Of a stretch of 35,601 nt of DNA, positions 4,567 to 35,601 are shown piece after piece. Where the stretch lies: NCBI GenBank assembly GCA_947442065.1, contig CANEUY010000006.1:1-35601 (forward strand), read 5' to 3'. The notes beneath the pieces are model-generated. The model had not been told where the DNA came from and did not search any database. It saw only the letters and a program-made list of their open reading frames with translations. This stretch comes from Verrucomicrobia subdivision 6 bacterium (lineage in GTDB: Bacteria > Verrucomicrobiota > Verrucomicrobiia > Methylacidiphilales > Verrucolacustridaceae). Numbering within the stretch: position 1 is the first letter of the stretch; each line of letters starts with the position of its first letter. Made by a program: the position numbers and the translations under genes.

Positions 4567-5406
4567 ATGACCTCCCCCGCCACGCAGACGTGGCTTTGCG
4601 GGAAAAAAAGTATCCGTATTTCCGTTTCTCGTCCCCTGATTTTGGGGATTCTGAATGTCACTCCGGATTCATTTTCGGATGGTGGAAAATTTGCTCAACC
4701 GGCAGATGCTGTCCGGCAAGGAATCCTGCTTTTTCAGGCAGCGGACGGAGTGGATGTGGGTGGGGAATCGACCCGGCCAGGTGCGGAGGGCATTTCGGCC
4801 AAAGAAGAGCGGGCGAGGGTGATTCCCGTCTTGAAGGAGTTAAGAAAAGAGATGCCCACGGCATTTTTGTCGGTGGATACCTACAAGGCCGAGGTGGCGA
4901 AGGCTGCGATCGGGGAGGCCGGAGTGGAGGTTGTGAATGATGTGGGGGGAGGGGCATGGGATCCCGGGATGTGGGAGGCGATTGCTTCCACGGGCGTGGG
5001 CTATGTCTGCATGCATGCAGGTGGAAAACCCAAGGAGATGCAGCAGAATCCAAGTTATCAAAATGTGGTGGCGGAAGTGGGGGATATTCTGCGCGAGAAA
5101 ATGGGGAAAATGGACGAGGTGGGGATTCACCAAGAGCATGTGGTGTTGGACGTGGGCATTGGATTCGGCAAGTCAACGGAGCATAACCGCGCGCTTTTGG
5201 AGGCGGATTGGACCGGATTGGGCCGTCCCCTTCTTTGGGGGCTTTCGCGAAAGTCATTTCTGGCAACGACCCAGCTAGAGAAAAAGCTCAAGGATCGGGA
5301 TGAGGCGTTGGACTGGTGGCACCGGGAATTGTTGAGAAAAGGCGGGGGGATGGTTTGGAGGGTGCACGATCCCGAACGAGTCCGAAAGGGGGCAGGATTG
5401 TGCTAA
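4567..5406 (+). CDS. folP: Dihydropteroate synthase (canonical)
   Basis: GILNVTPDSFSDGGKF, VDVGGESTRPGAEG, LSVDTYKAEVA, VVNDVGGG, DVGIGFGK, GLSRKSF, RVHD. Confidence 0.93.
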   Translation: MTSPATQTWLCGKKSIRISVSRPLILGILNVTPDSFSDGGKFAQPADAVRQGILLFQAADGVDVGGESTRPGAEGISAKEERARVIPVLKELRKEMPTAFLSVDTYKAEVAKAAIGEAGVEVVNDVGGGAWDPGMWEAIASTGVGYVCMHAGGKPKEMQQNPSYQNVVAEVGDILREKMGKMDEVGIHQEHVVLDVGIGFGKSTEHNRALLEADWTGLGRPLLWGLSRKSFLATTQLEKKLKDRDEALDWWHRELLRKGGGMVWRVHDPERVRKGAGLC

Positions 5407-31660: not shown

Positions 31661-32386
31661 CTAGAGATTCCAACCCCCGGAGAGGATCAGATTTGTGCCG
31701 GAGACCTGGGAAGCTTCGGGCGAGAGAAGGTAACGCATCGCGGAAGCGACCTCCTCGAAGGAGACAGGTCGACCGGAAGGAAGGGAGCGAGACGGCGGAA
31801 GTCCGATGCTGTTCTCCAGATAACCCGGGGAGATGAGGTTCACGGTGATCTTGCGGCGGATCAGTTCCGCAGCAAAGGAGCGGGTGAGGAGCGTGACACC
31901 GGTTTTACCGACGTGATATCCGGGAGCCATCCGTCGGGCATGGAGTCGATCCCCAGCGGCATCCCCGAGATTGATGATCCGGCCTCCGGATTTTGGAAAA
32001 AGAGGAAGGGAGCCTTGGGTCGTGAGAAAAACCGCAGTTGCGGTGCTTTCCAGACCCGCCTGCCAATCCTCGAAACGAGTACGGAGGAGGGGGGTGGGGC
32101 GGTAGGTGCCTGCATTGTTGATCAAGACATCCAGTCGGCCGAATTTTTTGCGAATCTGCAGGATCATGCGGTTCACGTCCTTGGGGCGGGACAGATCGGC
32201 CCGGATGACTTCGGTTGGGGTTCCTCGGGCACGAAGCTGGCGGGCCAACCGGAGAGTCGCTTGCTTTCCACTTCGATGGTGAAGGACGAGGGAATAGCCC
32301 AGGTCGGCCAATTCCCGGGCGAGGAAAGCCCCCAGCCCCCCGGAAGCACCGGTGACCAGAGCAATGCCGGGTGGGAATTTTTTCAT
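31661..32386 (-). CDS. Short-chain dehydrogenase, FolM/PTR1 (pteridine reductase)-like
   Basis: ALVTGASGGLGAFLARELADLGYSLVLHHRSG, LDVLINNAGTYRPTPLLRT, INLGDAAGDRLHARRMAPGYHVGKTGVTLLTRSFAAELIRRKITVNLISPG. Start ATG at 32386 overlaps the upstream gene stop (ATGA). Confidence 0.82.
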   Translation of the reverse strand: MKKFPPGIALVTGASGGLGAFLARELADLGYSLVLHHRSGKQATLRLARQLRARGTPTEVIRADLSRPKDVNRMILQIRKKFGRLDVLINNAGTYRPTPLLRTRFEDWQAGLESTATAVFLTTQGSLPLFPKSGGRIINLGDAAGDRLHARRMAPGYHVGKTGVTLLTRSFAAELIRRKITVNLISPGYLENSIGLPPSRSLPSGRPVSFEEVASAMRYLLSPEASQVSGTNLILSGGWNL

Positions 32387-33273
32387 GAAAGAATGCCGAG
32401 AGTCCGGGCGACGGCGCGAACCTTGGGGATTTCGTGAGTGCGCAGAAGATCGGTTTTGCCGAGTAGGGCGAGGACGGCAAAGAGAGGTTCGGCCGAGCGA
32501 ACCTCGTCTTGGAAAAACTCGAAAGCATGGGGAAGGGCGTGACAAACGGGCCAACCCAGCTTCCGCAGGCGGAAACTATTTAAGAAAGTTTCCGCCTGAT
32601 AGCGGATTCGGGCCGAGCTGTCCTGAAGATTGCGATAATAAAACCCCAACCCCGGATCGATCCAGATGGCGTGGACACCGGCATGGACGGCACGATCAAT
32701 TTCAGACCGGAAATATTCGAGCAGGGTGTGGGTATGGTCGGCCGATGGGGTGAAGTCCCCGACTTCGCGCACATTTTTTCCCTGTACGTAGCAAAGAATC
32801 ACGCCGGCTCGGTGCTCGGCAACCATACGATAAACTTCATCGGAGGGGCGCGTTCCCGTGAGATTGAGAACAGCAGCACCGGCTTCAAGACAGCGGCGGG
32901 CAACTTCCGGTTGGTAGGTTTCCACTGAGATCAGGGCACCTGCACGGGAGAGGGGTTCAAGGATGGGGAGAAGGGTTTGGATTTGTTGTTGGGCGTCTGC
33001 CCGGGCGGCATGCGCGAGGCTGGACTCGGCGCCGAGATCAATGAGGTGGGCTCCTTCGGCCTGGAGGCGGTAGGCCCGGGCAAGGGCCGCGTCGGTTCCT
33101 GTGACCACACTTTCCCGGTACCAAGAGTCGGGACTGAGATTGATAACTCCCATGAGGTGGGGGCCGTTGGCGGATGAAAAAGAATGACCCCGGAGGGTAA
33201 ATTCCGCAGTGCGGGAAGTCAGGTCGGAGGCATATTTTTGTGCCAGTTCAGCCAAATGTTCCAAGGAAAGCAT
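32383..33273 (-). CDS. Divergent dihydropteroate synthase paralog (pterin-binding TIM-barrel domain)
   Basis: LMGVINLSPDSWYRESV, GAHLIDLGAESS, LISVETYQPEVARRCLEAGAAVLNLTG, IWIDPGLGFYYRN, LRTHEIPKVRAVART: recognisable DHPS framework with substituted active-site motifs. Confidence 0.82.
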   Translation of the reverse strand: MLSLEHLAELAQKYASDLTSRTAEFTLRGHSFSSANGPHLMGVINLSPDSWYRESVVTGTDAALARAYRLQAEGAHLIDLGAESSLAHAARADAQQQIQTLLPILEPLSRAGALISVETYQPEVARRCLEAGAAVLNLTGTRPSDEVYRMVAEHRAGVILCYVQGKNVREVGDFTPSADHTHTLLEYFRSEIDRAVHAGVHAIWIDPGLGFYYRNLQDSSARIRYQAETFLNSFRLRKLGWPVCHALPHAFEFFQDEVRSAEPLFAVLALLGKTDLLRTHEIPKVRAVARTLGILS

Positions 33274-33370
33274 GAAGGAATCAGCTTAGGGGGAAAATCG
33301 GCGCTGGGCGAGAGTGGGGATGGACGGGAGGGGAGGGCGAATCCAGAGTGGCTGGATGGACACGAAACCA

Positions 33371-33799
33371 ATGAGCCAGTCAGAGTTGATGGCTTGGGAG
33401 ATCAAGGCCCGCCGCTGGTTGGTGTTGGGGTTGGCGGGGTTGTTGACCGGAGTGTTTGGAGTGGGGCTACTGACCCTGCAGATGAGCTATGAGATGTTGA
33501 AAAAGACCGAGGTGATGCGGGAGGCAAAAGACCGGATTTTTCAGGATGAAAGAGTCTTGAGGGAGCTAGGAAGCCCACTCCGACTTGGGTGGGCGGTCGC
33601 AGGAGAAATCGAGGATCTTCCAGAGCGGGGAACCGCCCGGTTCAATTTCCATATTTGGGGCCCACGGGGTCGGGCAGCCGTCAATCTGCGTGCAGAAAAG
33701 AACTCCTTGGGAAAATGGAAGTATCTACTTCTTGAGGTGAAGGCGCCGGGTCATCCCGCGATTTCTTGTGCGGACGGATTGCTTCGTCCGGGGACTTAG
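33371..33799 (+). CDS. Coa1-like (cytochrome oxidase assembly factor 1 family) single-TM protein
   Basis: N-terminal TM RRWLVLGLAGLLTGVFGVGLLTLQ followed by LRELGSPLRLGWAVAGEIEDLPERGTARFNFHIWGPRGRAAVNLRAEKNSLGKWKYLLLEV, resembling the Coa1/Tim21-type fold. Confidence 0.55.
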   Translation: MSQSELMAWEIKARRWLVLGLAGLLTGVFGVGLLTLQMSYEMLKKTEVMREAKDRIFQDERVLRELGSPLRLGWAVAGEIEDLPERGTARFNFHIWGPRGRAAVNLRAEKNSLGKWKYLLLEVKAPGHPAISCADGLLRPGT

Positions 33800-34674
33800 T
33801 GGGCTCCGGCGGCAGTTTCCGTTTCGTCGACCGGTACGGACTTGGCGACGGCTTCCTTGTTATCCACGATATTTTCGAGAGCGGCATCCAATTGGTCTAG
33901 CCCGTGTTTCTGGATGATGTTGCGGATATGCGTCAGGTAGTCCGTATCCGGGCAATAGCCGGAGGAGAGGATTCCCGAGACAAACTTCACGCCGGACTTT
34001 TCCCCGACATATTTATGGTACCGGTCGTTCGAGAGAAGGAATTGGGCGTATCCTTGAAATCCAGCTCCCAGATTTGGGTAGGCTCGAAAATCAGCCGTGG
34101 TATCGACTCCGCTGTCGCGGGTCGGCATGTTGAGGGCGCGTGCACCAGTCCAGCTGTCGAACGCCTTCATTCCAAAATAATTGTTGTATTCCTTCGCCAG
34201 GATGCTGTTGCCATACCCGGATTCGAAGATGGCCATGGCGAGCACAGCCGAAGCGGGAATCTGGGTGCTGGTCTGGATGAGCATGGCTTCCGGGATTGCG
34301 CTTTCGAGAAAGCGCCGCTGCCGGCCGTTGGCAGAGTCGAGAATTTTTGAAATACGGGTGGCGAGTCCGAGTACATCGGTGGTATCGGAGGTATGCGAGG
34401 CGATTAACCGGGCGATCCGCATGTCCCGTTCTTCGATTTCTTTTTTCTGGGCCAGACGGTTTTGCAGGGAATTCCATTTTTCCTCAAGGTAGCTTTTCGA
34501 GAGAGCTGCGGAGAACTGGGTCACCCCGATCAGGGAGACAACGGCGATTCCGAACAGAATCAACCAGGCAAAATTTGAAAGGACCAGAGTTCCAAACAAA
34601 CCCAGACGGAATTTGGGTTTTTGGGCAAAGGTCTTTCGGGCAATCGCCGGAGTCAAATCAACGATTTGAGGCAT
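33796..34674 (-). CDS. Membrane-anchored glucosaminidase (Bax/FlgJ-like, GH73-type)
   Basis: N-terminal TM; IPASAVLAMAIFESGYGNSILAKEYNNYFGMKAF, FRAYPNLGAGFQGYAQFLLSNDRYHKY. Confidence 0.87.
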   Translation of the reverse strand: MPQIVDLTPAIARKTFAQKPKFRLGLFGTLVLSNFAWLILFGIAVVSLIGVTQFSAALSKSYLEEKWNSLQNRLAQKKEIEERDMRIARLIASHTSDTTDVLGLATRISKILDSANGRQRRFLESAIPEAMLIQTSTQIPASAVLAMAIFESGYGNSILAKEYNNYFGMKAFDSWTGARALNMPTRDSGVDTTADFRAYPNLGAGFQGYAQFLLSNDRYHKYVGEKSGVKFVSGILSSGYCPDTDYLTHIRNIIQKHGLDQLDAALENIVDNKEAVAKSVPVDETETAAGAH

Positions 34675-34770: not shown

Positions 34771-35601
34771 TTAACTATGTGATTTTTTTTGATCTTTGAG
34801 TATGGAGGCGACGATGGAAAGGGTCAGAACGCCGATGACAAAGCCAAGGGTCCAAGAGATCGGAAGGTGGACGTAGCCAGAAATGAGCATTTTGACTCCA
34901 ATAAAGGACAGAATGACCGCCAAGCCGACATTCAGGTAGGCAAACAGTTTAATCAGGCCTGCAATGGCAAAATAGAGTGCCCGGAGTCCGAGAACGGCAA
35001 AGGCATTCGAGGTTAGGACAAGGAACGGGTCTCGGGTGATCGCAAGGATGGCGGGGATCGAATCAATTGCGAAAACTAGGTCGGTGGTTCCGAGGGCAAT
35101 CAGGACCAGAAAAAGAGGGGTGCCGACCCACCGATGATTTTGGCGGACAAAGAAATGGCCTTCATGAAAATGAGGGGTGATCGGAATGAATTTCCGGGTC
35201 AGGCGGACGAGGAAATTCTGGTCGGGCTCCACCTTGGCGTCTCCTCCCTTGAGGAGTTTGATCCCCGTGTACACGAGGAGGGCGCCAAACACATAAATGA
35301 GCCAATGGAAGCGGTTGATCATCGCAATGCCGGTAAAAATAAAGAGAGCCCTGAGGAACAAGGCCCCGATGATGCCCCAGAAAAGAGCGGGGAATTGGGA
35401 TTTTTCCGGAACGGCGAAATACCGAAGGAGAACGGCAAAAACAAAAACATTGTCCACACTAAGGGAGAGTTCGACAACGTATCCGGTGAAGAATTCCATG
35501 GCCGGATGAACCCCCAGGGTGAGGGCGATCAGGGCCCCGAAGGCGCAGGCCAAGGCTACCCAACCCGCGGTCGCCTGGAGGGATCGGCGAAGGTCGACCG
35601 G
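34771..35601 (-). CDS. TerC family integral membrane protein (5' end beyond window)
   Basis: EFFTGYVVELSLSVDNVFVFAVLLRYFAVP, FVYVFGALLVYTGIKLL-like region, TTDLVFAIDSIPAILAITRDPFLVLTSNAFAVLGLRALYF. Frame stays open (PVDLRRSLQATAGWVAL) to base 35601. Confidence 0.92.
   Translation of the reverse strand, partial: PVDLRRSLQATAGWVALACAFGALIALTLGVHPAMEFFTGYVVELSLSVDNVFVFAVLLRYFAVPEKSQFPALFWGIIGALFLRALFIFTGIAMINRFHWLIYVFGALLVYTGIKLLKGGDAKVEPDQNFLVRLTRKFIPITPHFHEGHFFVRQNHRWVGTPLFLVLIALGTTDLVFAIDSIPAILAITRDPFLVLTSNAFAVLGLRALYFAIAGLIKLFAYLNVGLAVILSFIGVKMLISGYVHLPISWTLGFVIGVLTLSIVASILKDQKKSHS

Follow-up and report, generated by a model that had tools for sequence, protein, structure and literature searches.

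Why should a bacterium that already encodes a complete dihydropteroate synthase (DHPS) also carry a second, strongly diverged copy, and what might that copy do? The question is raised by a contig stretch of 35,601 nucleotides from a Verrucomicrobia subdivision 6 bacterium (the window), which encodes both a canonical FolP and a DHPS-like paralog (Table 1). A sequence-only reading had proposed that the paralog binds a pterin but no longer condenses it with p-aminobenzoic acid (pABA), and that it may perform different pterin or one-carbon chemistry. The explanation favoured here, to which we assign a probability of roughly 0.42, is that the paralog is a neofunctionalised DHPS that takes a different second substrate and works alongside a pterin reductase and an amino-acid-type N-methyltransferase in one module. 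Four observations go beyond the earlier reading: an EgtD-like third partner, restriction of the family to one order, a folate pathway that is otherwise present and the retention of R255 and H257.

Table 1. Positions of the genes and active-site segments in the window, with residue equivalences in E. coli DHPS numbering
Feature	Position	Strand	Remarks
Canonical FolP (DHPS)	4567..5406	+	279 aa; ESTRPG, SVDT, GLSRKS and RVHD all intact in the alignment
Pteridine-reductase-like SDR	31661..32386	-	241 aa; ATGA overlap with paralog stop
DHPS-like paralog	32383..33273	-	296 aa; ATG start, TGA stop at 32385-32383
RTHE (residues 278-281)	32431..32442	-	R255 = R278, H257 = H280, 81/81
CHALPHAF (residues 244-251)	32521..32544	-	Replaces GxSRKS segment; no Lys/Arg aligned with K221
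DPGLGFYY (residues 206-213)	32635..32658	-	D185 = D206, F190 = F211, then invariant YY
SVETY (residues 116-120)	32914..32928	-	D96 replaced by E118, invariant
Loop 2, ESSLAHAA (residues 83-90)	33004..33027	-	T62 to S/T, R63 to L/V/I, P64 to mostly A
Loop 1, NLSPDSWYRESV (residues 45-56)	33106..33141	-	N22 = N45, F28 replaced by W51, invariant (alignment)

A real gene with a DHPS fold

The open reading frame of the paralog is a real gene; the earlier reading had placed it correctly, without stating that it lies on the minus strand. Its description as a second DHPS-like protein is borne out by a match to the Pfam Pterin_bind profile (PF00809; 4.6e-33, 115.3 bits, above the gathering score of 25.5). 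Against the DHPS equivalog TIGR01496, which has a curated cut-off of 162.6 bits, the paralog scores 120.3 bits and two of its orthologs 120.0 and 123.6 bits, all under the threshold, whereas the canonical FolP, also recognised as such beforehand, clears it with 245 bits. The AlphaFold model of the paralog, a check that the earlier reading had suggested, is confident (pLDDT 92.3, pTM 0.92) and shows the DHPS TIM-barrel fold; the 50 PDB fold matches listed by Foldseek are all DHPS or Sul enzymes, the best being 7s2k with dihydropteroate, Mg and pyrophosphate (PPi). Decay into a pseudogene was ruled out by strong conservation and the absence of stops, and a recurrent family of antisense open reading frames opposite the paralog was regarded as artefactual, of the kind that coding DNA produces on its opposite strand.

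Around the paralog, a divergent open reading frame (33314-33799, plus strand) matches the cytochrome oxidase assembly protein Coa1 (2e-7), and cytochrome-oxidase-subunit-like genes are also found in the paralog neighbourhood of marine relatives. The genes upstream are ordinary, encoding a glucosaminidase-domain protein (33796-34674, minus) and a TerC/Alx-family membrane protein (34771-35601, minus).

A largely retained pterin side and a largely rebuilt pABA side

Residues were counted over an alignment of 81 paralog orthologs and numbered by an E. coli DHPS sequence that carries 17 of 17 landmark residues at their published positions. N22 (N45 in the paralog), D56 (D79), N115 (N137), D185 (D206) and F190 (F211) are invariant across all 81 sequences, as is the second basic pair conserved in DHPS, R255 (R278) and H257 (H280). 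The D96 position holds Glu118 throughout and never Asp, which is a conservative swap. Residue 85, at the T62 position, is Ser or Thr. Elsewhere the active site has changed: residue 86, at the R63 position, is Leu in 71 sequences, Val in nine and Ile in one; and residue 87, at the P64 position, is mostly Ala. GLSRKS has become C-x-A-L-P-H-A, with C244 and A246-A250 conserved in 81/81, and equivalents of K221 and S222 are absent; alignments of this segment shift by one to two residues, none of them puts Lys or Arg at K221, and the profile alignment pairs neither with it. A new set of invariant polar residues (again 81/81) comprises E118, R169, Y212, Y213, D218, R222, H249, E257, R259, R278 and H280.

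All of the motifs picked out by eye in the sequence-only reading proved correct, with the Asn of VINLSPDS being N45, that of VLNLTG N137 and the Asp of IDPGLGF D206, and with the alignment confirming the changes from SVDT to SVET, from ESTRPG to ESSLAHA and from GLSRKS to CHALPHAF. Its statement that the conserved Arg and Lys had been lost holds for K221, R63 and S222 but fails for R255 and H257; of the positions it had named for comparison with the E. coli enzyme, N115 and D185 are kept, D96 is exchanged for Glu, and R63 and K221 are gone.

In DHPS, N22, R255 and H257 lie on the pyrophosphate side of the active site. Published structures show the pterin ring contacted by the equivalents of N115, D185, D96 and K221 and by the stacking R255 (PMC3098144), the S. 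aureus pABA pocket comprising Phe17, Pro53, Phe172, Lys203 and Thr51, equivalent to F28, P64, F190, K221 and T62 (PMC6057106), and the pABA carboxylate bound at the S222 equivalent (PMC10328974). In the paralog, the Pro, Lys and Ser of the pABA pocket are changed or lost and the Phe17 equivalent has become Trp. Read against the published contacts, this residue pattern thus has most of the pterin and pyrophosphate sides preserved and most of the pABA side rebuilt. As R255 and H257 are invariant, chemistry on a pterin-CH2-pyrophosphate would still be possible; loss of K221, which contacts O4 and N5 of the pterin, may weaken pterin binding.

With FolP (TIGR01496; PDB 5u10, 3tyz) the paralog shares the TIM-barrel, the pterin-side Asp/Asn frame (D96 as Glu), the stacking Arg and the PPi-side His, at only about 25-30% identity and without equivalents of R63, P64, K221 and S222; the C-x-ALPHA segment, the SWYRESV loop 1 and the YY after GxGF are new. 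Among Sul1-3, Sul2 (7s2k) is the top fold match and Sul3 a top-ranked sequence match, and these enzymes too have an extra aromatic residue after DPGxGF, but they are active DHPS enzymes with the pterin/pABA Lys and Ser (Lys212/213, Ser214), both missing from the paralog. The stretch FYY after DPGLG (residues 211-213; 32635-32643, minus) resembles the extra Phe of the Sul enzymes, which is the source of their sulfonamide insensitivity (PMC10328974). Mycobacterial FolP2 (PDB 2vp8) is likewise a second, diverged DHPS alongside a working FolP, but it matches the paralog only moderately in sequence (56.6 bits) and is linked to cell-wall genes, whereas the neighbour of the paralog is a pterin reductase; in M. 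leprae, folP2 fails to complement an E. coli folP mutant (PMC1971073). DHPS-like as it is in fold and pterin side, the paralog should, on its sequence, not be filed as a DHPS, because it scores under the TIGR01496 cut-off and lacks K221, S222 and R63.

A conserved family found in one order

The paralog is a real and distinct family, found, among the genomes sampled, only in the window's own order of Verrucomicrobiota. Orthologs are present in 48 of the 60 genomes searched, and the 81 aligned have about 87 near-invariant residues in common. A scan of 84,980 species, one genome each, returned 125 confirmed relatives, of which 80 were kept, nearly all labelled Verrucomicrobia (a few species labels look misassigned); distant relatives may have been missed, since two strict peptide patterns served as the query. 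Within a phylum sample of 289 genomes, family members (400-543 bits) were confined to the window's order, and the other matches reached at most 133 bits, the range expected of ordinary DHPS; thirteen of these, placed in a tree, group with canonical FolP. The paralogs form a single clade in that tree (support 100/100), separated by about 4.3 changes per site from canonical FolP and with short tips. Identity to the window copy is 71-81% within the genus and 52-65% within the order, compared with 60-72% and 39-52% for FolP against the genome's own FolP, so that the paralog is under stronger constraint than FolP. Its carriers live in fresh water, soil and hot springs, and the order includes methane oxidisers. 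Searches of the open-access literature found no description of such a family.

The canonical FolP of the window sits on an unusually long tree branch (1.51 changes per site), and FolP conservation across the order is lower than that of the paralog. In one genome (G045) the canonical folP match (C191:3945-4718) has three in-frame stops, through pseudogenisation or sequencing error, and the paralog is kept.

A probable pterin reductase and the missing FolA

The start codon of the downstream short-chain dehydrogenase/reductase (SDR; ATG, 32386-32384) overlaps the paralog stop as ATGA, which makes translational coupling likely, as the sequence-only reading had held. The best NCBIfam match of this SDR is TmpR (NF012208; 196 bits, under the cut-off of 325), and the aligned SDRs share the Asp-Tyr-Lys arrangement of E. 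coli FolM within a GD...YHxGK pattern, Asp standing where SDRs usually have Ser. They differ from the TGxxxRxG motif described for PTR1/FolM (PMC1971073) in having TGxxxGxG; the window copy reads TGASGGLG, and Gly likewise replaces the Arg in the remaining SDRs displayed with an intact motif. A dihydropterin/dihydrofolate reductase is the probable identity of the SDR. A survey of the pair, as proposed earlier, covered 80 loci: in about 27 of them, some from families beyond the window's genus, the SDR lies directly downstream of the paralog, and in the remaining 53 or so it is not adjacent.

None of the 21 genomes of the window's genus encodes FolA (PF00186), and neither does any genome of a second family (f8), which is taken to be Methylacidiphilaceae partly from its missing folA; nearly all of these FolA-less genomes contain the SDR. 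Papers reporting that Methylacidiphilum lacks folA proposed FolP as its replacement, on the H. pylori model (PMC2474590, PMC3404531); a better and more direct candidate is the SDR. It also occurs in one lineage (g10) without paralog, methyltransferase or FolA, and hence need not share the pathway of the paralog. In three f8 genomes the SDR lies directly before riboflavin synthase (orthologs L157, L158 and L164). Strain SolV has both a folP1 and a folP2, both expressed (PMC3404531), one of which may correspond to the paralog.

An EgtD-like methyltransferase as a proposed third partner

A third gene recurs with the paralog, encoded outside the window: an EgtD-like methyltransferase, with PF10017 found in 12/12 members. 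It lies directly after the SDR on the same strand at six loci and converges with the paralog at seven; in about 15 further genomes SDR and methyltransferase are neighbours while the paralog lies elsewhere, in f8 within 10-35 kb of them. In the window's genome the methyltransferase, encoded on contigs C109 and C24, is unlinked and diverged, with only about 30% identity to the others. The two copies there (G000 C109:739-1614 and C24:6-644; L159, L160) are near-identical, the first on a short contig and the second cut at a contig end, and possibly represent strain variants or an assembly duplicate.

Among genomes outside the window's genus, sequence searches detected the methyltransferase in 26 of the 30 that carry the paralog and in none of the nine that lack it (Fisher 3e-6, shared ancestry being ignored; by genus, 10/12 against 0/2), and in a phylum sample of 195 genomes it occurred only in those carrying the paralog. 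Two genomes (G021 and G023) have the paralog and no methyltransferase. The partner shares PF10017 and equivalents of Y39, N166, Y206 and S284 with the histidine methyltransferase EgtD, but scores 29 bits against TIGR03438, far under the cut-off of 291, and has an invariant Phe at the aligned position of Glu282 in the histidine site. In EgtD, N166, Y206 and S284 hold the amino and carboxylate groups of the amino acid (PMC8593015); their retention, together with the Phe for E282, suggests an amino-acid-like substrate other than histidine.

Folate context and rejected roles

FolB was found in 27 and FolK in 28 of 28 good genomes, and canonical FolP is generally present too; the paralog therefore fills no obvious folate gap. 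Several roles could be set aside on these and related grounds. Substitution for FolB or FolK is rejected given the wide presence of both genes. Substitution for FolA is rejected because paralog occurrence is not associated with a lack of FolA (Fisher p 1.0 and 0.46) and because 296 aa is plain DHPS length, with no space for a fused reductase domain of the H. pylori type. Supply of tetrahydropterin to aromatic amino acid hydroxylases is excluded by the lack of any such hydroxylase in the 60 genomes, and HisB, RibE, cytochrome oxidase and phospholipid genes were dismissed as partners, being neighbours in some lineages only. In the neighbourhoods examined, neither corrinoid proteins nor one-carbon genes recur beside the paralog, and the earlier suggestion of one-carbon chemistry gained no specific support.

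A proposed pterin module and its alternatives

In the neofunctionalisation model, the old pocket of the paralog would most likely still accommodate a 6-substituted dihydropterin, probably in its pyrophosphate form, and the rebuilt second-substrate site would allow something other than pABA, or water, to attack the pterin-CH2 group. The PTR1/FolM-type SDR would reduce dihydropterin or dihydrofolate with NADPH, the EgtD-like, S-adenosylmethionine (SAM)-dependent methyltransferase would carry out N-methylation of an amino-acid-like substrate that is not histidine, and the three may constitute a small clade-specific pterin module. A more specific and decidedly speculative version, improbable as it stands, envisages an undescribed pterin conjugate in the order: the paralog would link dihydropterin-CH2 to a non-pABA amine, possibly an amino acid, the SDR would reduce the ring and the EgtD-like enzyme would N-methylate its amino-acid portion, and the product would be a new tetrahydropterin, serving as a cofactor or a metabolite.

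The alternative that survives best, while itself unlikely, is that the paralog binds a pterin or folate and performs unrelated chemistry, as a hydrolase, a lyase or a methyl- or methylene-folate-dependent transferase, like other PF00809 proteins. That family includes corrinoid methyltransferases besides DHPS, the genome's own third PF00809 match being a 1238-aa open frame, and the loss of K221, R63 and S222 with Asp and Asn retained, together with the associated methyltransferase, is compatible with such a change. However, the nearest relatives of the paralog by both sequence and fold are all DHPS or Sul enzymes, the invariant N22, R255 and H257 on the pyrophosphate side fit DHPS-type chemistry better, and the neighbourhoods lack a recurrent corrinoid or one-carbon gene.

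A non-catalytic role for the paralog, whether as pterin sensor or as scaffold or partner of canonical FolP or the SDR, on the model of mycobacterial FolP2, is rather improbable. The failure of M. leprae folP2 to complement (PMC1971073) and the missing catalytic-site Lys of the paralog would both accord with this idea, and the ATGA coupling would suit a stoichiometric partner of the SDR, but adjacency to the SDR is not general, and a new set of polar residues invariant in 81/81 sequences is unusual for a dead enzyme.

Only a small chance is given to loose coupling, in which the SDR is the dihydrofolate reductase of the clade and the paralog serves another process. This would account for the SDR in nearly all of the FolA-less genomes (21/21 of the genus and all of f8) and for g10, with its SDR and none of paralog, methyltransferase and FolA, but the pairing of paralog, SDR and methyltransferase in varying orientations across families points to a shared function. 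The least plausible alternative is an ordinary or sulfa-insensitive second DHPS still making dihydropteroate, which would explain the retained R255, H257, N22, N115 and D185, the closeness of Sul2 and Sul3 with their similar aromatic residues after GxGF and the expression of both SolV folP genes (PMC3404531), but which is opposed by the sub-threshold TIGR01496 score, the absence of K221, R63, P64 and S222 equivalents where the Sul enzymes retain at least Lys and Ser, the complete canonical FolP kept alongside and the slower evolution of the paralog than of that FolP.

Implications

If the paralog has a new reaction, as the neofunctionalisation model supposes, it would show how a sulfa-drug target can be remodelled in nature while its pterin pocket stays in place, and it could point the way to an unknown pterin metabolite in an order that includes methane oxidisers. 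Members of the family are expected to carry the annotation 'dihydropteroate synthase', which would be misleading. Independently of the paralog, the SDR offers a testable answer to the published folA gap of Methylacidiphilum.
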